42,655 bases of DNA from a virus. This document shows positions 21,174-38,198 of this stretch, piece by piece. The notes below the pieces were generated by a model that worked only from the letters and a program-made list of their open reading frames with translations, was not told the origin of the DNA and did not search any database. Made by a program: the position numbers and the translations under genes. Where the stretch lies: the IMG/VR virus record IMGVR_UViG_3300019890_000011, positions 1 to 42,655 of that record; one strand, written 5' to 3'. Position 1 is the stretch's first letter, and every line of letters begins with the position of its first letter.

Positions 21174-21352
21174 CTTGCCCCCTCGCCACCCGACGGAAGT
21201 GTCGGCAATGGTCGTGGCGAGGGCGCGGCCATCTGGGCCGCCCGGGCTGGCGTCGTGGTGGTGTTTAGAATGGCGATGGTGGCGGACGCCTTTCTCAGGC
21301 GTAAGGCCCGCGTGAGACCGGCTCGAACTTTGCCGCACAGACGGCAGCTCAT
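21170..21352 (-). CDS. 60-residue protein partly encoded by a palindromic element
   Basis: The frame starts at an ATG overlapping the connector stop (ATGA) and ends at a TGA overlapping the head closure GTG, so it is tied into the operon at both ends. The N-terminus has C-R-L-C-G-K; the C-terminus, from about residue 42, is Pro/Gly-rich and is encoded by the large palindrome at 21180-21223. It could be a spacer frame grown from a mobile palindromic repeat. No family recognised. Confidence 0.45.
   Translation of the reverse strand: MSCRLCGKVRAGLTRALRLRKASATIAILNTTTTPARAAQMAAPSPRPLPTLPSGGEGAR
21180..21223. repeat. 44-bp double palindrome, REP-like
   Basis: CCCTCGCCAC (21180-21189) pairs with GTGGCGAGGG (21214-21223), 10 of 10; inside it CCGAC (21190-21194) pairs with GTCGG (21201-21205). 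Nested stems with a conserved GGCGAGGG end are typical of chromosomal palindromic repeats in high-GC Pseudomonadota. I saw no second copy in this genome. Confidence 0.7.
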
Positions 21353-21840
21353 ACGCCCATCCCGATGCGATAGGGAAAGAGCATGTCGGTGCTGGTCTTG
21401 TCGAGCAGATCCCAGTTGTCGGTATTGCGATCGAACAGCAGCTCGATGCGCATCAGGATCGCTTCCTTGACATCGCGGCGCAGCGACTGCGAGTCGTCCC
21501 GCAAGATCGGATTGTTGCGCCAGAAATTTTGCCAGGTGCGCTCGTCCCAATGCTCGCGGCCGTCTACGGCGACATCGAGGCCAATGCCCTCCTGCTCCGG
21601 ACCGGTGAAGGATGGGGAGTCTTTCGGCTCCGGCAGCGGCACGGCCGATTCATCGCTTGGGCTGCTGAGCTCCATGAGCTCGCCCAAACTTCGGCCGGTG
21701 AAACTCTCGGCCCAGTCGATCGCAGCGCCGATCAATCGGTTGATGCGCGCATCGTGCATCGTCAAGCCTTCATCGATCGATAGCTGTTCCTTCGCTTCGA
21801 TGAGCGAAATGTAGGGGTTCGCTGCGCTCGGGCTGCTCAT
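21349..21840 (-). CDS. Head-tail connector (gp6-like)
   Basis: 163 residues. It shows the gp6-like opening Y-I-S-L-I-E-A-K-E-Q-L-x-I-D, then R-I-x-R-L-I-G-A-A-x-D-W-A-E near 33-47 and a C-terminal V-K-E-A-I-L-M-R-I-E-L-L-F-D helix. In HK97-type phages this ring sits under the portal. Normally it follows the capsid gene directly; here the sugar-transfer cassette separates them. Confidence 0.82.
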   Translation of the reverse strand: MSSPSAANPYISLIEAKEQLSIDEGLTMHDARINRLIGAAIDWAESFTGRSLGELMELSSPSDESAVPLPEPKDSPSFTGPEQEGIGLDVAVDGREHWDERTWQNFWRNNPILRDDSQSLRRDVKEAILMRIELLFDRNTDNWDLLDKTSTDMLFPYRIGMGV

Positions 21841-22544
21841 CGATAGTGTTCCCTAATCCATGAATGCTTGCGTTGCATGAGCGGATCCCAGGGGTCCACG
21901 TGGCCGTGCATGATCACCATTTTCGCGGTCGGCGGCAGCATGCCGCCGCCTGGCAGAACTTGGTTGCGGTAGGAATATACGCCGTCCGCTTTGGTAAATT
22001 TGGCTTCGTGCGGCCCGAGGCACGCGCCGATCCACGCCTGATCCGATCCGATGTACTGCAATTTCAGACCCAAGAGTGGCGAGATAAGCGGGTTGAATTG
22101 CTCCCACAGTTGGGTGCGCGTGCCGGCGGTGTGCTGGATCAGGCTGCCGTTGTAGGGCGTGCCGCGCGCGGTGTCGCCGTACATTTTTAAATCGAGATCG
22201 TGATCGAACAGCGCGGTAATGTCGCGGCAGATAACGACGTCGAGGTCGATCGAAACGAAGCGCTTCCCGATGAACTCCGCTGCCTCGCTCGAGAACATCT
22301 TCAGGCGCCGATAGCAGCTGGGATTTCCGCGACCGTGCGGGCTTGGAACTTTGGCGTAGTCGCTCCACAGTTTGATGATGCGAACCTTCGGTGAGATTCC
22401 GGCCGGGTCATCGGTCACGCACACCAGTTCGAAGGGCTTCGCGTAATGGCGCGAGAGCATCGAGTGCAGCACGTTGACGGTGGCGGGTTCGAACTTCGAT
22501 CGATAGCCCACCGGCGGTTTCCATTTCCAGCAGACGAAGATCAT
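21837..22544 (-). CDS. GT-A type glycosyltransferase-like protein (DxD)
   Basis: 235 residues from the ATG at 22544 (AAGAAG upstream); a GTG at 22574 would add ten. S-I-D-L-D-V-V at about 98-104 is the metal-binding DxD of GT-A enzymes, and the following I-T-A-L-F fits GT8/GT32-like proteins. Later, G-S-D-Q-A-W-I resembles the acceptor-side motif of such enzymes, and an H-G-H lies near the C-terminus. It would move a sugar from a nucleotide donor. Last gene of the cassette, coupled to the connector by ATGA. Confidence 0.75.
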   Translation of the reverse strand: MIFVCWKWKPPVGYRSKFEPATVNVLHSMLSRHYAKPFELVCVTDDPAGISPKVRIIKLWSDYAKVPSPHGRGNPSCYRRLKMFSSEAAEFIGKRFVSIDLDVVICRDITALFDHDLDLKMYGDTARGTPYNGSLIQHTAGTRTQLWEQFNPLISPLLGLKLQYIGSDQAWIGACLGPHEAKFTKADGVYSYRNQVLPGGGMLPPTAKMVIMHGHVDPWDPLMQRKHSWIREHYR

Positions 22545-22578
22545 CGCTTCTTGCCCAACGAGTAGCCGATGCACACGC

Positions 22579-23298
22579 TCACGGGTAGATCTGCCGGTAT
22601 GGGAACGAGAGGCGCAGCGGTTTCCAATCCGGGTCGCGCTCGCGCTGCGCCTTGATGAGCGGCAGGTTCAACGCATCCTCCGGCTGCTTGCGAAGGTAGG
22701 TCGTGGTCGAGGCGTCGGGGATCACGCTGCGGGGGACTCGGATCAGCACCTCATCGAGCATGACGACCTCGGCACACGCCGCGGCGCGGTTGCGAAAGTC
22801 CGCGTCGGTGCCATAGAAGCCGGCGAAGCGCTCATCATAGCCGCCGATCCGCTCCCAGGTGTTGCGGGTCATCAGCCAGCTGTTCGGGTGCGGCTTGTAG
22901 GGTGTCGTTTGCGGGTCGGAGCCTGGCGGTTCAAGTGTCTCGCGCGAGAAGCGATAGACCACGCTTTTGGAGAGCTTGCGAGCGATGATCCGCTCGAAGG
23001 TTTCCCGTGGAACCAGGTGGTCGATATCGGTCAGAAGCAGCCAGCGGGTGTCGGCGTGGTGCGCTGCGATGTTGCGCGCAGCGTCTTGATTCCAACGGAT
23101 ATCTACCCCGATCTTGAAGATCTCCAAGGGGCAGCCTATCGGCTCTCCCTGTGCGTCGCCGTCCGGCGATCCATCGTCCACCACAATGACGGCGAGCTCC
23201 TCCTTGAGCGAGTCTGGGAGGGCCCGTAGGCGCTCCAGATGCACTTTGAGCATGCCCGCGTTCAGGTAATACGGCAGGCACAGAGTCAGCTTGCGCAT
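22579..23298 (-). CDS. GT2-like glycosyltransferase
   Basis: 239 residues from the ATG at 23298; the frame is open further upstream but that part only shadows the next gene. It starts L-T-L-C-L-P-Y-Y, then V-I-V-V-D-D-G-S-P-D-G at about 37-47 (nucleotide binding) and L-T-D-I-D-H at about 89-94 (DxD). The order is that of inverting GT2 enzymes of the GT-A fold. F-Y-G-T-D-A-D-F-R-N-R near residue 160 fits the acceptor/catalytic region (an E/D-D-x-D-type loop). Starts 13 bp inside the end of the previous gene. Confidence 0.85.
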   Translation of the reverse strand: MRKLTLCLPYYLNAGMLKVHLERLRALPDSLKEELAVIVVDDGSPDGDAQGEPIGCPLEIFKIGVDIRWNQDAARNIAAHHADTRWLLLTDIDHLVPRETFERIIARKLSKSVVYRFSRETLEPPGSDPQTTPYKPHPNSWLMTRNTWERIGGYDERFAGFYGTDADFRNRAAACAEVVMLDEVLIRVPRSVIPDASTTTYLRKQPEDALNLPLIKAQRERDPDWKPLRLSFPYRQIYP

Positions 23299-23915
23299 AC
23301 GGCCTCGAGCGCCCGGCGCGTGATCTGCGGAAACGGCAGATGCGGCTTCGGATAGGGCAGCGGACCCAGGCCCTTGGTCGCGATGAAGGTCTGGATACCT
23401 GCCTCGCGCAGCTGCGCGGCCGCGCCGTCGAACTGCTTCGCCCACACGTCCAGGCGCGCGGCCCCGGTGGAGCTCGCGCTCCACGGATACGGCGGAAACC
23501 AGTGCGCCTCGCCTTTTGGCCCGCGCGCCATGTCGAAGCCGACCAGGTACAGCGTGCGCGGCCGCATCTGATAGGCGAGGTTCAGCGCACAGAAGCCCGA
23601 ATGCGTGCCGTTCAACGTGCCCGGCGTATCGCAGAGCTCGGTTGATTGGTGATCGTTCTCGAACGGCGTGACCCAGGGGCACCCGGTGAGGTCGATGTTC
23701 ATCAGCGTGCGCCGGCGGAGCCACGTCGGCTTGCGAAGTCCGCGCAATTGATCCATGCGATTCTCGGCCCACAGCCGATCCATCGAGACGATGACATCTA
23801 CGTGCGGCACCAGCAGGCCCGCGTCATTCACGCCGATGATCGTGCCGGGAAGTTTGCCCAGATCAAATTGCGAGGCTGACCAGCCGCCGGCCACGATGGT
23901 GATGGGCCCGTTCAC
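23286..23915 (-). CDS. Putative nucleotide-sugar enzyme with GWS motif (DUF115/GT42-like)
   Basis: 209 residues from the GTG at 23915 that overlaps the methyltransferase stop (GTGA), with GAGGCGAG upstream. It opens P-I-T-I-V-A-G-G-W-S, then I-I-G-V-N-D-A and D-V-I-V-S-M-D, and later L-V-G-F-D-M-A-R-G ... H-W. The same series of motifs, as V-V-I-V-A-S-G-P-S and L-L-G-F-D-F, occurs in the frameshifted protein at 25880-26703, so the two are likely paralogs. The pattern resembles DUF115/MptE-like and GT42-type proteins, which handle sialic-acid-like or other nucleotide sugars. Substrate unknown. Confidence 0.6.
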   Translation of the reverse strand: MNGPITIVAGGWSASQFDLGKLPGTIIGVNDAGLLVPHVDVIVSMDRLWAENRMDQLRGLRKPTWLRRRTLMNIDLTGCPWVTPFENDHQSTELCDTPGTLNGTHSGFCALNLAYQMRPRTLYLVGFDMARGPKGEAHWFPPYPWSASSTGAARLDVWAKQFDGAAAQLREAGIQTFIATKGLGPLPYPKPHLPFPQITRRALEAVCAS

Positions 23916-24577
23916 CTCGCCTCGTATCGATGCGTCTCGGATTTTTCGCCGTACCACACCATGCCCAGATGCTTGAAGTGGCTGGATAGCAATCGCATGG
24001 TGTTGTAGCGCTGCTCGGCCGCAGCATCGTCATACATATTCGCGCGCCGGCCGCCGCGGATATCGACGATGAGCATCGTGTGCCCCGGCTCACAGGCGCT
24101 CAACACCAAATCGAGGTGTCGTTCGGGTTCGATGTGGAAGCACCAGGATTTGAAACTCACGATCAGATCGTATTTGCGCACCGCTTTGCGATTCGGATCG
24201 TTGGCATCGATGAAGTCGAAGTGCTTGACGCCGTTCAGCGCCAGAAAGTGACGCGCGACCTTCATATTGTTGAACGTGACGCTGTGCGAGGTGACTTGCG
24301 GAGGATCATCGACGCCATCGAGCAGCGTGACCTGGCACTCGCCGCCGTAGTGATCATTGAGCATCGCATCGATGCCGCCGAGGCCCGATCCCACGTCCAG
24401 AATCGAGCTGCACTTCTGCGGCAGGAGCCCCTGCAGGTGCTCGAACTCATTGCACAGCACCTCGATATATTTTCCGCACCAGGTCTGCGGATCGCCCTTC
24501 ATGTCATCGAGCGCACCGCGCTGCAGGACCAGATACGCGAACGCATCGTTCGAGATATTCAAGGATTCCAGATTCAT
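23912..24577 (-). CDS. Class I SAM-dependent methyltransferase
   Basis: 221 residues from the ATG at 24577, whose last three bases begin the stop overlap with the gene before (ATGA). I-L-D-V-G-S-G-L-G-G at about 59-68 is the SAM-binding loop, followed by an acidic V-T-L-L-D-G strand and a Y-D-L-I-V-S-F segment near 145. It is a free-standing enzyme, in contrast to the fused domain in the gene upstream. O-methylation of a sugar is a plausible role in this setting. Confidence 0.75.
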   Translation of the reverse strand: MNLESLNISNDAFAYLVLQRGALDDMKGDPQTWCGKYIEVLCNEFEHLQGLLPQKCSSILDVGSGLGGIDAMLNDHYGGECQVTLLDGVDDPPQVTSHSVTFNNMKVARHFLALNGVKHFDFIDANDPNRKAVRKYDLIVSFKSWCFHIEPERHLDLVLSACEPGHTMLIVDIRGGRRANMYDDAAAEQRYNTMRLLSSHFKHLGMVWYGEKSETHRYEAR

Positions 24578-25773
24578 GGCTTGTGGGCCCAGACGGTGAG
24601 GCCCTTGCGCATTTCGTGGCGGCGAATATTCCACCCCTGCGCGCGCAGCTGCGCGAGCCACCAGGCCTCATCGTGCAGACTGATGTGCGCGTTGCGGCCA
24701 TCGGGCAGGATCGCCTTCGCGGGGCGCGTCGATATCACGAAGTACGCGGCCTTGCCGGTCAGGTCGAAAATGTGCCGCATCACATTTTTAAGTTTCTCGG
24801 GCTCGATGTGCTCGAGCACATCAGTGCAAACCACGAGCTCGCAGGGCTTGGGCATCATCGAGCTGCCCGGGATCCCCGGATCGTACAGACTCACCCGCCG
24901 AGGCTTCATCGCCGGCGCCAACGATCCGGTGCCGCAGCCATAATCCAAAATCGTCTTCGCGTCGATCGCCGCGGCCAGCAGCTCGACTTCAGGCGCGTGA
25001 CTCTTGCCCGCGTTGCCCCATTTTTGCGTGGCATGCATCGTTGTGAGCAGCTGCCGATAGGGGAAAGAGGCGACGTCATCGGCTCCAAACTGGTAAGCGC
25101 CCGCGTGTTTCATAAACATTCCTATGTGGCCCAGGTCGATGGCGTGGAAGCCCTGTATCGCCAATCTATAGGCGAGCACGGTTGCGGTAACGCCGAGGCA
25201 AAGCAGAATGCGGCCGTTCGTCATCTCACCGGTTGCGACGCAGATTTGCCGCTCGAGCTCATCAATTTCCGCGTAGGCATGTTGTCTCGGCCCGATCACT
25301 TCGGTCACGGAGAGAGCATCGGCGCCGATCATTTCTTTCGTTATTGATTTTTTCTCAGCTCCGCCGTCTTTCGCGGTGCCGACCACGAGCACCACGTCGA
25401 CGCCCGTCCACAGCGCGCGCACTTTGGCCCAGTAGTCCGGCCGGTCGATCCATGGCGCGTTGTCGGGCCGCGTGATGAAGGCGCTGCCGTAGACCTTCGC
25501 GCCGCAATACTTGACGTAGCGTTCCTCGGTGTAGCGGATCCAGCTCACCTTGCGCGGGCAACCGTTGAAGATGTTGGGCAGGCACACGATGCACTCGCCC
25601 GGGTGCAGCAAAATATTCTGCAGCTCGCGCGCGAGGGCCGGATCCGCACGCTGCGAGGTGCAGCCGCCGCCCACCGCGCAGCGCCATTCGCCATCGCCAA
25701 AGCGAGCGATCGATTTCGTGGCGGCGAGCTCGATCGTCACGTCTTCCGATAGTATTTCCGGATACTTTCTCAA
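24574..25773 (-). CDS. GT-D glycosyltransferase fused to SAM methyltransferase
   Basis: 399 residues, TTG start overlapping the previous stop (TTGA). Residues 1-222 match the GT-D (DUF1792) fold: S-I-A-R-F-G-D-G-E-W at 21-30 with the D-x-E metal motif, L-G-V-T-A-T-V-L-A-Y near 193-202, and A-I-D-L-G-H-I at 211-217. Residues 268-399 are a class I methyltransferase with I-L-D-Y-G-C-G-T-G at 275-283 and D-V-L-E-H-I-E near 318. One chain could thus add a sugar and methylate it. GT-D enzymes were first described in streptococcal protein glycosylation, so a protein target is reasonable. Confidence 0.8.
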   Translation of the reverse strand: MRKYPEILSEDVTIELAATKSIARFGDGEWRCAVGGGCTSQRADPALARELQNILLHPGECIVCLPNIFNGCPRKVSWIRYTEERYVKYCGAKVYGSAFITRPDNAPWIDRPDYWAKVRALWTGVDVVLVVGTAKDGGAEKKSITKEMIGADALSVTEVIGPRQHAYAEIDELERQICVATGEMTNGRILLCLGVTATVLAYRLAIQGFHAIDLGHIGMFMKHAGAYQFGADDVASFPYRQLLTTMHATQKWGNAGKSHAPEVELLAAAIDAKTILDYGCGTGSLAPAMKPRRVSLYDPGIPGSSMMPKPCELVVCTDVLEHIEPEKLKNVMRHIFDLTGKAAYFVISTRPAKAILPDGRNAHISLHDEAWWLAQLRAQGWNIRRHEMRKGLTVWAHKP

Positions 25774-25883
25774 GACTCGCCCCAGCTCGAGAGCACGCCG
25801 CGGATGATGTTGGTGGCGAAGATGAACAGCGTCACGCCGGCGCCGGCGAGCAGCGATCCCAACAAGAGCATCAGGAATCTCAT
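25770..25883 (-). CDS. 37-residue single-pass membrane protein
   Basis: From the ATG at 25883, overlapping the stop before it (ATGA), to a TGA overlapping the next start (TTGA). A hydrophobic segment fills residues 3-26 (LMLLLGSLLAGAGVTLFIFA) and a short polar tail follows. Inside a sugar-transfer cassette it could anchor an enzyme to the inner membrane. Coupling at both ends makes it a likely gene. Confidence 0.55.
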   Translation of the reverse strand: MRFLMLLLGSLLAGAGVTLFIFATNIIRGVLSSWGES

Positions 25884-26703
25884 AGCACCGCCTCGATCGG
25901 CTTTTGCGGGAAACAGGTGAGCGCCGTCTTGCGCGTGCAGTTGATCACCTCGATGTTGGCGCGCGCCAAGTCTTTCGCCAGCACGTTCATCGCTGTAATC
26001 CACGCAGGATACGTGCCGCCGTTGCCCAGGCCGCGCGGGTGATCACCGTGCCAGTGGGCCTTGCCGCTGGTGCGCTGGAAGTCGAATCCCAAGAGCAGAA
26101 TCCGGCGCGCGCCGAAGAGCGCGGCGAGCGACATCGCCTGGTAGCCGGAATTTTGGCCCTGGTGAATGAGCGTTGGATCGGCCGACAGTCCGGGCCGGTC
26201 CATGCCATAGATCCAAAGCAGGTCGAACTGATCGCGCGCGCGCTCAGACGTGGTCCACATCTCACCGCGAAATTGCGTGGCGACTTCGCGGAAGTACTGC
26301 ACCCACCAGGTCGCATCACACGCATACAGCACATCGGCCCAGGGGGCGGCGCGAAAGGACGTATTGACCGCTATCGATTTGCACTTGCCCCGGACGAACG
26401 CGACGTCTTGCGCCGTGAGGCTAGGCCCGCTCGCGACGATGACAACGGTTTCACCTCGCCAGCGTCCGGCGGGTCCTCCGAGCTTGGGCGCGGCGGATCC
26501 TGCGGCTGCCGGTTCCCCGATGTTGCTGGCGCGCGCGGGAATGACTGGGTGCGCGCGGGCTCTAAAGGGTCGGGGATGATTTCGATCAGGCCTAGGCGCA
26601 GCAGATCGCTCGCGTAGGCCTTCTCGGAACTGAACCTCGATCCGGAGCGAATAAATCCGTACTGCGAGCTCTTGAACGATCGCAGCGCTTTGCATTCTGG
26701 CAT
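25880..26703 (-). CDS. Post-capsid protein fused by -1 frameshift to GPS-motif transferase-like domain
   Basis: A -1 shift at 26563 joins codons 1-47 of the post-capsid protein to a frame ending at 25880, giving 274 residues. The downstream part has a Pro/Ala linker to about residue 80, then V-V-I-V-A-S-G-P-S-L (87-96), I-A-V-N-T-S-F, W-A-D-V-L-Y-A-C-D (122-130) and L-L-L-G-F-D-F ... G-K-A-H-W (203-218). The motifs resemble DUF115 and GT42-like proteins. An independent start exists at 26695 (ATG) but is badly spaced from the ribosome site, and its first 44 residues do not look like protein. Either fusion by recoding or a base error in the sequence explains the frames. Confidence 0.6.
26371..26703 (-). 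CDS. Small post-capsid protein, unshifted form
   Basis: 110 residues from the ATG at 26703, with AGGAG eight bases upstream. The first 47 residues (K-A-L-R-S-F ... G-L-I-E-I-I-P) match a small protein commonly found right after the major capsid gene in siphophages, of unknown role. Beyond codon 47 the frame turns into a Pro/Ser/Arg-rich tail that looks non-native and ends at TAG. That break coincides with the slippery site. Confidence 0.7.
   Translation of the reverse strand: MPECKALRSFKSSQYGFIRSGSRFSSEKAYASDLLRLGLIEIIPDPLEPARTQSFPRAPATSGNRQPQDPPRPSSEDPPDAGEVKPLSSSRAGLASRRKTSRSSGASANR
26530..26569 (-). promoter_or_regulatory. Candidate programmed -1 frameshift signal, capsid-adjacent gene
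   Basis: Minus strand: C_CCT_TTA covers 26569-26563, with zero-frame codons gaC|CCT|TTA, so both tRNAs can re-pair after a -1 slip (CCC, TTT). The spacer is 5 bases (26562-26558). CGCGCGC (26557-26551) pairs with GCGCGCG (26536-26530), a 7-bp all-GC stem with a 14-base loop. The layout is the same as in the tail chaperone signal. Confidence 0.6.
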
Positions 26704-26770: not shown

Positions 26771-28111
26771 CTAGTGCGTGCTCTCGCCCGCGGGTATCGC
26801 GCCATAGACCAGCGCCGCCGGCCGCGTGACCGCGAGCGCCAGGCGCTCTTCGGCGAGCACCGTCACCAAGTTGCGCACGAAGTTGTCCTGATCCTCGTTG
26901 CTGACCAGGATCTGCGCCTGCTCGCGATCGAACAGCGTGGTCGCGAGCTTGAAGGCACCGACCAGGAAGTCCCCGGGCTCCATCGAGAAGGCCTGCACCA
27001 CGGGCAGTCCCCACAGCATGCCGGGCGTCGATTGCGTCGGGCTCGCGATCATGTAGCGGCCAAGAGAATCCTTGGTGAGCTCAAGATCGTGCCAGTCGGT
27101 CGGACTCATGACGATGCCGGTCGACGGATAGAACGCCAACTGCACCTGCAACATGGCGTGGCGGATCACATCGATGCGCGTATCGGCCGGCCGATGGAAC
27201 GCGCTGCTGAAAGGCGTCGCCTGCGGGACGAGGCCAAACAGATTGTCGCCGGTACCGTCGCCGAAGAGGATCTGCTGTTCCTCGATCAATTTCAGGCCGA
27301 AGGTTAAGCGCCCGTTGATCAGCGAGGCCAGCTGCGGGAAGTCGGCGAGGATCTGCTTGGTCGCTTTGATCCAGTGCGCCAGGGTCTTGACCGCGACGTC
27401 TTTGCGCACGTAGGTGATATCGGACTGCGGCTTCAATCCGCCTTCCGAGACCGGGCCCGCTGCATTGGTGAACAGCAATTCCTGCACCCACTCGATCAAG
27501 TTGGCGCCGGTGGTCGCCGTATCCAACAGATCCCGCATGGTCAGCGGCTGAAACGGCGGAATGACTGGAGTCGGCAGGAACTCTGGGAACGCGCCGGCGC
27601 CGCCGGTGATGGTCGTGATGTTCTTGCACTGGAATGGCGCCATCGCGCCTTTGAGCGAGCCGCCGCGCTTCGCAAATTCCTTCCACTGCTCGGACTCGAT
27701 GAACTGCTCGCCCAGAGATTTCTGGCGCGCGCCGCCGCCCGGCATTCCGCGCGTGAGAATCTTTTGCTCCAGATCCAGGAGCCGCGCATCGTTCGCCGCC
27801 TTTTCGGCTTTGATGGTCTGAAATTCGGCGATCATTTTCGCGCCGTCGGTGTTCAGCTTCTCGACGGCGAGTTTGACGCCCTCCTGCACCGTGCCGAACG
27901 TTTTCACGTTCTCTTCGACCGCTTTGATCACATCGGTGACCTTCTTGCCGTGCGCCTCGAGCTCGACCTTGATCGCGGCGCGCAGCGCGTCGGCTGACGC
28001 AGAGTCGGCCTCGGCCCAACGGCCGGAATAAAAATAGCTATCCGTCTCTAGAACCCGAGACGTGGCCATGTCGATCACGCCGCGCGTGATCACTCTTCGT
28101 AGATTAAGCAT
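26771..28111 (-). CDS. Major capsid protein, HK97 fold
   Basis: 446 residues, ATG with GAGG upstream. A charged, coiled N-terminal delta region (about 30-120) ends near a likely protease cut, as in HK97 capsids. The core has the usual motifs: P-x-F-Q-P-L-T-M-R-D-L near 190, A-H-W-I-K-A-T near 245, Q-Q-I-L-F-G-D-G-T-G-D-N-L near 278, and G-I-V-M-S-P-T-D-W near 328. It follows portal and protease genes in the standard order. Confidence 0.93.
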   Translation of the reverse strand: MLNLRRVITRGVIDMATSRVLETDSYFYSGRWAEADSASADALRAAIKVELEAHGKKVTDVIKAVEENVKTFGTVQEGVKLAVEKLNTDGAKMIAEFQTIKAEKAANDARLLDLEQKILTRGMPGGGARQKSLGEQFIESEQWKEFAKRGGSLKGAMAPFQCKNITTITGGAGAFPEFLPTPVIPPFQPLTMRDLLDTATTGANLIEWVQELLFTNAAGPVSEGGLKPQSDITYVRKDVAVKTLAHWIKATKQILADFPQLASLINGRLTFGLKLIEEQQILFGDGTGDNLFGLVPQATPFSSAFHRPADTRIDVIRHAMLQVQLAFYPSTGIVMSPTDWHDLELTKDSLGRYMIASPTQSTPGMLWGLPVVQAFSMEPGDFLVGAFKLATTLFDREQAQILVSNEDQDNFVRNLVTVLAEERLALAVTRPAALVYGAIPAGESTH

Positions 28112-36046: not shown

Positions 36047-36123
36047 CCAACTGGTTGCGCCTTCCGATCGAGGACGCAGCCGGGTGCAAACATCGCACCG
36101 ATAACAACCACGACGAGAGACCT

Positions 36124-37254
36124 ATGAAACGATCGACGAAAGTCCCACACACGAACGGCGCTGTAGCCAAGCAATCCCAGAAATTTCCGCGAGCAGTGCC
36201 AGCCAAATCAACGACTTCCGCAAATGCGGCCAAGAAATCCCAGTCGACGAAAGTCCCACATGGCAGCAAGGCGATGCAGGCGGCGAGCGCGGCCGCGGCG
36301 GCCGCCCAGGTCGCACGCTTCGAGGCGACCAAACCGCCAATGCTCGAGCTCGCGATTCCCAAAAGCCTGCCCGCACCGGTCAAGCAGGCATCGGTCGAAA
36401 ACGCCAAGGACATCGAATGGGTGAGCGTGCGCCTGGACGTCCTGCAGGCCTGCCTGATGGTCGCGCCGAAGAAGGATTCACGCGCCGCGCTCGGTGGCGT
36501 GTACCTGCACGCCAACGGCGATGCGCTGCGCGCGGTCGCGACCAATGGGCACACGCTGCTGCTGCATTCCTCGCAGACCAAGGATCTGCATCTGCCCACA
36601 TGGCTCGATTGCGGTCTTATTTTGCCGCGCGAAGGCCTCGCGATGGCGCTCGGCTGCCTGGCCAAGCTCGAGGGCGGCAAGGATGCGACCACGTGCCAGA
36701 TCGGTTGGGCGCGCGGCCACGGCTATGCGATCGTGCGCGATGCGGAGGAACAGGCGACGTTTCGACTGCGCAGGATCGACGCGCCGTTTCCCGAGTACCA
36801 GAAACTCATCGAGGCGGCGGGCCAGGTCCTCACCGGCGGCGAACGACTGCCGCTATCGAGCACCAGCTACAACGGCGAATTCTTAAAGCAGGCGGCCGCC
36901 GTAGGTAAGGTGTTCGACGCGAAGGGGTTGACGCCGTTTGCTGGCAATGATCCGAAGGCGCCCGCGGTGGTCTCATTCTTCGGCGAGCCAGGCGCGCTGT
37001 TTATCATCATGCCGCTGGTGAGCTCCGGATCCGAGCAGCTGCCCACGCAAACGATGGCACTGATCGGCAAGGGCTTAGGCGGCACGCTGGCCGCGCTCAA
37101 GGCAACGCAGACCCGCCAGAAAAAGCAGATGGCCGAATCGAAAAACGAGAACGAGAAGAAATCGCTCGCCGCCGGGATAGCGCTTCGCGACGGCCGAATC
37201 GCGGACGTGGTGATGGCAATGGGGAAATTGCTGGCGGCACCGAAAGCGGCTTAA
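36124..37254 (+). CDS. Sliding-clamp-like protein (DnaN domains 2-3)
   Basis: 376 residues from ATG at 36124 with GAGAG upstream. Residues 1-75 are Lys/Ser/Ala-rich and hold two S-T-K-V-P-H copies. From 95 on it reads as a beta-clamp: A-A-L-G-G-V-Y-L-H near 121-129, L-R-A-V-A-T-N-G-H-T-L at 135-145, L-I-L-P-R-E at 165-170, F-P-E-Y-Q-K-L-I at 222-229 and A-L-F-I-I-M-P-L at 291-298, all matching clamp domains 2 and 3. It lacks domain 1, and a charged coiled tail is added. It may replace or occupy the host clamp and draw polymerase to phage DNA. No phage polymerase was seen. Confidence 0.78.
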   Translation: MKRSTKVPHTNGAVAKQSQKFPRAVPAKSTTSANAAKKSQSTKVPHGSKAMQAASAAAAAAQVARFEATKPPMLELAIPKSLPAPVKQASVENAKDIEWVSVRLDVLQACLMVAPKKDSRAALGGVYLHANGDALRAVATNGHTLLLHSSQTKDLHLPTWLDCGLILPREGLAMALGCLAKLEGGKDATTCQIGWARGHGYAIVRDAEEQATFRLRRIDAPFPEYQKLIEAAGQVLTGGERLPLSSTSYNGEFLKQAAAVGKVFDAKGLTPFAGNDPKAPAVVSFFGEPGALFIIMPLVSSGSEQLPTQTMALIGKGLGGTLAALKATQTRQKKQMAESKNENEKKSLAAGIALRDGRIADVVMAMGKLLAAPKAA

Positions 37255-37306: not shown

Positions 37307-37349
37307 CTTGTAAGACCTATCTATGAATCGAAAGGGAATATACATCATG

Positions 37350-38198
37350 ACATCGAAAGAATCGAACCGATCCACCGGGATCGAGTGGACAGAGCATACC
37401 TGGAATCCCTTTGTAGGCTGCACCATTCACACAGCCGGGTGCACCAACTGCTATGCGATGCGCGCCGCCATGCGCCTGCAAGAATTTGGCATGGAGAGCT
37501 ACCGCGGCGTGGCGAAACTCGCGAACGGCGTTCCCGTCTGGACCGGGAAGATCAATCGATCGAGCGACGCGCAGATGGAGAAGCCCCATAAGATCAAAAG
37601 GGCATCGCTCATTTTCGTCAACTCGATGAGCGATTTTTTCCACGAGGATGCCGACGATCTCTGGCGTCTCGAAGCGCTTTCAGTCATGCGCACCACGCAC
37701 CATCAGTACCAGGTCCTCACCAAGCGGCCGGAAAATATCCTCCCCTTTTTGAATCGCACGATTCGCAAGGATCTGCCGACGAACATGTGGGTGGGCGCCA
37801 CGGTGGAGCGCGCCGACTGCGTGCACCGTATTGCAACGCTGCGCAACGTGCCCGCGAAAATCCGGTTCTTGTCGGTCGAACCGCTGATCGGTTTCATCGG
37901 CCCGATGGACCTGGCCGGGATTCATTGGGTGATCTTAGGCGGCGAGTCGGGCCCAGGGGCGCGGCCGATGATGCCGGCCTGGGCGCGCCAGGTCCGCGAT
38001 CAGTGCGTCGCACAGAACGTCCCGCTATTCTTCAAGCAATGGGGAATCGCCTACAACAATCCGATCTTTGACGAAGCACCGGCCGGATTCACCGGCACGC
38101 GATGGGTTGCGAAGCAGGATCCGAACGGCAAGGGCGGCTCGCTGCTCGATGGGCGCGAGTGGAAGGAATATCCAAACTTTGCAGGGAGTGCAGCATGA
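37350..38198 (+). CDS. DUF5131 / phage Gp37-Gp68 family three-Cys protein
   Basis: 282 residues from ATG at 37350 (AAGGGA upstream); an ATG at 37323 has no ribosome site. I-E-W-T-E-H-T-W-N-P, then C25, C32 and C35 in a C-x6-C-x2-C cluster ending C-Y-A, are the family signature. V-L-T-K-R-P, V-E-P-L-I-G and L-G-G-E-S-G-P-G-A-R-P-M follow in order. The Cys cluster suggests an iron-sulphur centre related to radical-SAM enzymes, but activity is not established for this family. It is often paired with a TcmP partner, which I did not find. Confidence 0.85.
   Translation, partial: TSKESNRSTGIEWTEHTWNPFVGCTIHTAGCTNCYAMRAAMRLQEFGMESYRGVAKLANGVPVWTGKINRSSDAQMEKPHKIKRASLIFVNSMSDFFHEDADDLWRLEALSVMRTTHHQYQVLTKRPENILPFLNRTIRKDLPTNMWVGATVERADCVHRIATLRNVPAKIRFLSVEPLIGFIGPMDLAGIHWVILGGESGPGARPMMPAWARQVRDQCVAQNVPLFFKQWGIAYNNPIFDEAPAGFTGTRWVAKQDPNGKGGSLLDGREWKEYPNFAGSAA

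Follow-up and report, generated by a model that had tools for sequence, protein, structure and literature searches.

Why does a block of sugar- and methyl-transfer genes lie between the capsid gene and the head-tail connector gene of a phage? The question is raised by the virus record IMGVR_UViG_3300019890_000011, which is complete at 42,655 bases, was analyzed over its whole length and is referred to here as the window. Its late genes are on the minus strand and run in the order TerL (31920-30169), portal, protease, capsid, gene block and connector, with head closure, neck, tail terminator, major tail protein and tape measure genes located 3' of the connector. The capsid-to-connector interval holds a small open reading frame (sORF), a gene that we call GPS1, a 37-amino-acid (aa) membrane peptide, a GT-D glycosyltransferase joined to a methyltransferase, a free methyltransferase, a second GPS gene (GPS2), a GT2 glycosyltransferase and an enzyme of GT8 fold (Table 1). 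The answer that we propose, with a probability of slightly over one half, is that these genes form a head-linked glycan-assembly cassette, the initiating enzyme of which has a Maf/GT42 fold and is made by ribosomal frameshifting in most relatives.

The initial annotation of the window had placed transferase and methyltransferase genes between the capsid and the connector, and this arrangement is borne out, as all of them lie on the minus strand and could be matched to families. It had also described all of the genes as coupled by overlaps, which holds at six junctions: overlaps of 4 bases join GPS1 to the membrane peptide, the peptide to the GT-D gene, the GT-D gene to the free methyltransferase, the latter to GPS2 and the GT8-like gene to the connector, and GPS2 overlaps GT2 by 13 bases, but the GT2 and GT8-like genes are separated by a 4-base gap. 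Terminator-like matches within the region are no more numerous than expected by chance, making a single transcript for the cassette and the structural genes plausible. Compared with close relatives, the cassette enzymes show ratios of nonsynonymous to synonymous substitution (dN/dS) of 0.14-0.30, which together with the recurrence of the gene order in many contigs indicates that these open reading frames are real genes under selection.

GPS1 as a proposed -1 extension of the sORF behind the capsid gene

The most unusual feature of the block is the relation between the sORF and GPS1, and it had been overlooked when the small frame at 26703-26371 was merged with GPS1 into one gene. Homologues of the sORF occupy the same place in GPS1 loci. 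After redundancy had been removed at 90% DNA identity, 91 such loci were retained. At 56 of the 91 there is no start codon in the GPS1 frame within 150 nucleotides of the GPS motif and the sORF overlaps in a -1 relation, whereas a single start-less locus has the other frame only; in some, such as L012, the GPS1 frame contains no ATG, GTG or TTG anywhere 5' of the motif. A gene without a start of its own needs another way to be read. Strict X_XXY_YYZ slippery heptamers are present in the sORF frame at 39 of 52 loci, against 4.2 (standard deviation 1.9) expected from shuffles of codon order, and their distribution over the three frames is 47:10:4, with the sORF frame first. The heptamer itself differs between loci (GGGAAAA, AAAAAAA, AAAAAAC, CCCAAAA, CCCTTTG and others), so that its letters change but its reading frame is conserved.

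Substitutions between relatives switch phase along the overlap. Upstream they favor third positions of sORF codons (177:91:67), and around the motif they favor third positions of GPS1 codons (148 versus 69 and 67), with both frames mostly open. Furthermore, an sORF-like domain and GPS1 are fused in frame at three loci (L237, L243 and L265). The heptamer excess, the phase switch and these three fusions lead us to suggest that, across the family, GPS1 is usually made through a -1 frameshift that joins a Maf-like transferase to a small head-region protein; the family as a whole carries the signature of such a slip. Where GPS1 is located away from the sORF, as in P1 pmgO, PAJU2 and Eowyn, it has its own start. 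The same layout is found, without a strict heptamer, in a prophage within an assembled bacterial genome (L298), and small open reading frames similar to the sORF also follow the capsid gene in phages that lack GPS1.

In the window, a slip at either C_CCT_TTA or G_GGG_AAC would yield a single open protein of 274 aa. Between relatives, substitutions fall at third codon positions of the sORF until roughly position -100 relative to the GPS motif. Late-gene -1 frameshift fusions of this general kind have precedents in the tail chaperones gpG/gpGT and the major head protein of phage A2, both cited in PMC10885494, which likewise involve an X_XXY_YYZ site, a -1 shift and a minority extension of a late protein. 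At the GPS1 loci, in contrast, an entire domain of glycosyltransferase fold is added, of which we found no report in the literature searched; nor did searches on phage Maf-like enzymes, frameshifted glycosyltransferases and the function of P1 PmgO return anything direct.

Three deposited homologues are annotated with a start that lies 3' of the GPS nucleotide-binding motif: D3 orf7 (L036:4840-5558), Psp6_00048 (L288:2708-3564) and TVGG_00049 of virus S20 (L032:6164-6925). The deposited proteins are therefore truncated, the frame extending upstream to overlap the small open reading frame.

GPS1 has a Maf/GT42-like fold

Both GPS proteins belong to PHROG 4603, a family that bears the name alpha-2,3-sialyltransferase, and GPS1 matches it at 1.3e-52. 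The idea of a Maf/GT42 fold was set down as a hypothesis before a structure model of GPS1 existed. In the AlphaFold2 (AF2) model (predicted local distance difference test score, pLDDT, 88.5), the best match obtained with VIA-align was the Maf protein of Magnetospirillum (5mu5; Z 15.9 over 183 residues, root mean square deviation 3.1), followed by an MptE-type hydroxymethylpterin pyrophosphokinase (HPPK) of Methanocaldococcus (Z 12.0) and then by the GT42 enzyme CstII (1ro8; Z 10.9) and other sialyltransferases. The two GPS/GWS proteins had been put forward as candidates for sugar transfer, with a Foldseek comparison against GT42 as the check. Foldseek alone gave no convincing match for the GPS1 model and the family emerged only with VIA-align, by which CstII was indeed recovered but Maf scored higher, so that the candidate can be refined to the Maf/GT42 grouping.

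When solved structures were searched with sequence profiles made from GPS1 and GPS2, nothing significant was returned, and no solved GT42 was matched. While the model has the fold of the Maf central domain, the score of GPS1 against PF01973 (Maf_flag10) is 29.5 bits, below the curated cut-off of 34.6, and at approximately 200 residues GPS1 is without the additional N- and C-terminal domains of Maf, being joined instead to the small post-capsid frame. For these reasons GPS1 is, as modeled, Maf-like and not Maf. Maf flagellin O-glycosyltransferases, the closest fold, move CMP-nonulosonates and CMP-Kdo (cytidine monophosphate-activated sugars, Kdo being 3-deoxy-D-manno-octulosonic acid) onto serine or threonine of flagellin (PMC11339370). 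No match to PF01973 passing E 0.001 was found in the Bradyrhizobium host genome. GPS2 has motifs that are invariant among 27 sequences.

The cassette recurs beside head genes

A search seeded with the GT-D/methyltransferase protein recovered 30 related loci. The order capsid, small open reading frame, GPS1, GT-D/methyltransferase, methyltransferase, GPS2, GT2, GT8-like and connector is kept in at least 17 other non-duplicate contigs, answering a check on gene order elsewhere that the initial annotation had proposed, and L004 keeps the order apart from a missing free methyltransferase. In Tetraselmis viridis virus S20 a variant of the cassette is located between a putative capsid gene and the head-closure gene, and in L024 the block lies between capsid and portal. 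In a prophage of Bradyrhizobium sp. JYMT SZCCT0428 the cassette sits directly 3' of a lambda-type capsid E gene (6.7e-72), accompanied by terminase and portal of lambda type. That the block recurs 3' of capsid genes belonging to different families speaks for a functional link with the head. Exceptions are Caulobacter phage CcrColossus, in which a cassette lies between tail and lysis genes, and P1, phiNP and Eowyn, in which the GPS genes are located elsewhere than in the head region. At one of the related loci (L027:1439-3349), a PF06381-type portal protein carries a C-terminal Acb1 domain (directed against the cyclic oligonucleotide-based system CBASS) in the same open reading frame.

A constant GPS1 with exchangeable neighbors

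In phages with capsids 74-77% identical to that of the window (L120-L127), GPS1 and the connector are kept, but the GT-D/methyltransferase, methyltransferase, GPS2 and GT2 genes are replaced by one or two genes that are unrelated or very distant. Among the replacements, L126 has a weak GT2 match, L122 has a weak DUF4422 match and two have no Pfam match. This is the pattern of glycan loci, in which the initiator stays and the extenders change, and constancy of GPS1 beside swapped neighbors is what would be expected of an initiating enzyme.

A shorter set, consisting of GPS1, a further gene and a methyltransferase, is found in D3, PAJU2, Psp6 and Eowyn. D3 shares with the window the order capsid, small open reading frame (orf6.5), GPS1 (orf7) and connector; its set comprises GPS1, orf12, which looks like GT-B by eye only, and the methyltransferase orf13. 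In P1 the homologue pmgO is a standalone GPS gene. This recurrent trio of GPS gene, further gene and methyltransferase (L036, L287, L288 and L291) belongs to Pseudomonas and Klebsiella phages and represents, among phages in culture, a reduced form of the cassette.

A proposed virion glycan system and its alternatives

We propose that GPS1 would start a glycan by transferring an acidic sugar, either Kdo or a nonulosonic acid, from the CMP-activated form supplied by the host to serine or threonine of a virion protein, with the capsid protein as the leading candidate acceptor. The GT-D, GT2 and GT8-like enzymes and GPS2 would then extend the glycan, and the two methyltransferases may cap or decorate it. 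In most relatives, a -1 slip at the heptamer would produce a minority of sORF-GPS1 fusion protein, which may both limit the amount of GPS1 and, by way of the small protein, direct it to the head. The initial annotation had likewise suggested a virion glycan system. What can be retained of it is a glycan-building system tied to head genes, for which the synteny, the recurrence behind a lambda-type capsid, the intact families and folds and the lack of thymidylate-synthase genes speak; that the virion is modified, that the sugars are O-methylated and that synthesis is timed with head assembly are further suggestions. Extended beyond this locus, and more tentatively, many phages of proteobacteria may use a -1 frameshift extension of a small head-associated protein to put a Maf-like enzyme on a few head-docking subunits, so that an acidic-sugar primer on the capsid and exchangeable transferases build a coat glycan specific to each phage.

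Several observations weigh against the proposed cassette function or against the slip. In contig G001 (L007, L117 and L118) GPS1 is beside the head-closure gene and the rest of the cassette is approximately 25 kb away, where it adjoins an integrase-like open reading frame and is convergent with other genes. Missing start codons had to be rejected as a statistic, since 53 of 63 loci compared with 55 expected from the sORF codons is not above chance. No strict heptamer is present at 13 of the 52 loci, and downstream RNA hairpins are modestly favored (mean z -0.74, standard error 0.15) and strong only in some loci, such as L008; a uniform downstream stem as stimulator was accordingly set aside. 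The window itself has an ATG at 26695 in the GPS1 frame, and a degenerate heptamer where relatives have their slippery site; because of this spare ATG, use of the slip is less certain here than in the family. A Ser/Thr-containing capsid tail is kept only in the clade of the window, and is lacking from other GPS1 lineages and from capsids without GPS1; the conserved C-terminus G-x-[FI]-x-x-G-x-[ST] was dropped as a candidate acceptor, being absent in other GPS1 phages and confounded by descent. Finally, knock-outs of P1 showed that pmgO and pmgP are dispensable for plaque formation (PMC10695390), although dispensability is also what a coat modification would show.

With respect to the window, GPS1 might instead start at the ATG at 26695, 8 bases after the ATG of the sORF, or at a non-canonical start, with translation coupled to the sORF. 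This ATG, at -261 in the GPS1 frame, is present in the window and L030, but every other locus of the clade lacks it, the C_CCT_TTA site is strict, and substitutions between -269 and -134 favor third positions of the sORF (19:9:6 for the window and L002, 20:10:4 for L030 and L002), indicating that the stretch is selected as sORF. We therefore regard a start of this kind as doubtful. Alternatively, GPS1 could act on the head without transferring sugar, as an assembly factor or as another nucleotide-binding enzyme with, for example, the kinase chemistry of MptE. The second-best fold match is of that type, PF01973 covers both proteins, and the depositors of PAJU2 and Eowyn label their GPS proteins as structural, on a basis that is not stated. 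However, its companions in the cassette are unmistakable glycosyltransferases and methyltransferases, and GPS1 is accompanied by a methyltransferase in the four phages with the shorter set, which makes a non-glycosyl function improbable.

Other explanations accept sugar transfer but place it away from the virion. Late in infection, or in the lysogenic state, the cassette might alter a surface glycan of the host, lipopolysaccharide or exopolysaccharide, and so keep other phages out or help progeny to get free, in which case the location among head genes would reflect timing only. The window encodes a large serine recombinase (922-2559) and the phage is thus probably temperate, the GT2 domain is of O-antigen type by Pfam, and the layout of G001 suits such a role. 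Against this, the matches of the cassette, the enzymes of which look soluble, include neither a flippase nor a gtr-type polytopic membrane transferase, and both the recurrence right behind unrelated capsids and the fusion of GPS1 to the post-capsid frame point to the head, so that we consider a host-surface target unlikely. Phage DNA is another conceivable substrate, as phages such as T4 glycosylate their own DNA with phage transferases at hypermodified bases. The Maf/GT42 and GT-D folds differ, however, from those of the T4 DNA glucosyltransferases, the cassette sits with head genes and not with replication genes, and a PF00303 thymidylate-synthase-type gene, which would be anticipated with hypermodified DNA, was absent both from the window and from ten related records that include fragments. 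We judge glycosylation of DNA to be highly improbable.

Glycosylation of phage capsids as such is already known, and what would be new in the head-linked glycan system is that a Maf-like enzyme starts the glycan, that a frameshift is involved and that a modular locus follows the capsid gene. According to the papers citing Freeman et al. 2023 (PMC11256854, PMC10877033), the capsids of mycobacteriophages Che8 and Rita are glycosylated. In both systems the transferases are encoded by the phage, and the capsid, the target in those phages, is the presumed target here, but the cassette of the window has a Maf-like enzyme, with a proposed frameshift in most relatives. Transferases encoded beside structural genes had been cited as the mycobacteriophage precedent, which is a loose fit: in Maravista, a cluster F1 relative of Che8 and Rita, the transferases are near the 3' end of the genome and not beside structural genes (PMC11256854). 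No mycobacteriophage is among the organisms named for matches to the GT-D/methyltransferase protein or among the GPS1 matches listed.

If correct, our proposal would extend glycosylated virions from mycobacteriophages to phages of proteobacteria, by means of a modular locus in which, as in a serotype locus, the initiator is fixed and the extenders are swapped. It would also assign a role that can be tested to those genes of D3, P1 and others that are labelled "sialyltransferase" through PHROG 4603, and show frameshifting in the service of attaching an enzyme to a small head-region protein, explaining the mis-annotation of such genes. Glycans on the phage coat matter for stability, for adsorption and for recognition by the immune system.

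Other proteins of the cassette and window

The description of a GT-D domain and a methyltransferase within one protein proved accurate. The GT-D domain scores 94.7 bits against a PF08759 cut-off of 27, and its profile matches the GT-D structures 5v4a and 4phr at 1e-35, establishing membership of that family; the methyltransferase part is Methyltransf_23. The protein described as a GT-A type with DxD is a transferase with that motif, and can be refined to a GT8-type fold, its AF2 model (pLDDT 92.0) matching LgtC (1g9r) at Z 18.1 over 213 residues and glycogenin at Z 16.9, with D110 and D112 invariant in 26 sequences. As no Pfam family matched it at E 1, we name it GT8-like by fold only. A small membrane protein is present as described, but is restricted to the closest relatives.

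Table 1. Positions of the cassette, its borders and candidate slip sites in the window
Feature	Coordinates (strand)	Matches	Remarks
Major capsid protein, HK97 type	26771..28111 (-)	PF05065 1.4e-48; PHROG 10 major head protein 1.4e-67	
sORF, 3' of capsid gene	26371..26703 (-)		Frame 0, 110 aa; would supply the N-terminal, head-docking portion of the frameshift product
Slippery heptamer C_CCT_TTA	26563..26569 (-)		Strict X_XXY_YYZ in sORF frame; also in closest relative L030
Heptamer G_GGG_AAC	26512..26518 (-)		Degenerate; G_GGA_AAC in L030, G_GGA_AAA in many relatives
GPS1, Maf/GT42-fold transferase domain	25880..26500 (-)		GPS motif 26434-26420; -1 frame relative to sORF
Single-pass membrane peptide	25770..25883 (-)		37 aa; homologues only in L002, L003, L030
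GT-D glycosyltransferase fused to methyltransferase	24574..25773 (-)	PF08759 9e-27; PF13489 6.6e-11	399 aa; TTG start
Free S-adenosylmethionine (SAM) methyltransferase	23912..24577 (-)	PF13489 4.8e-6	26.9 bits versus cut-off 27; dN/dS 0.22-0.28
GPS2, second Maf/GT42-like protein	23286..23915 (-)	PHROG 4603 2.3e-18	GTG start at 23915 or 23957
GT2 glycosyltransferase	22579..23298 (-)	PF00535 7.6e-9	36.2 bits versus cut-off 23.3; member of GT2
GT8-fold glycosyltransferase	21837..22574 (-)	PHROG 1962	Invariant D-L-D
gp6-type head-tail connector	21349..21840 (-)	PF05135 9.9e-6	Downstream border

Elsewhere in the window, the open reading frame at 36055-37254 weakly matches two families across one and the same part of its length, a DNA polymerase sliding clamp (PHROG 947, 1.9e-12) and a RusA-like family (PHROG 3007). 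The frame at 37323-38198 encodes a DUF5131 protein (2.3e-81), of the phage Gp37/Gp68-type family.

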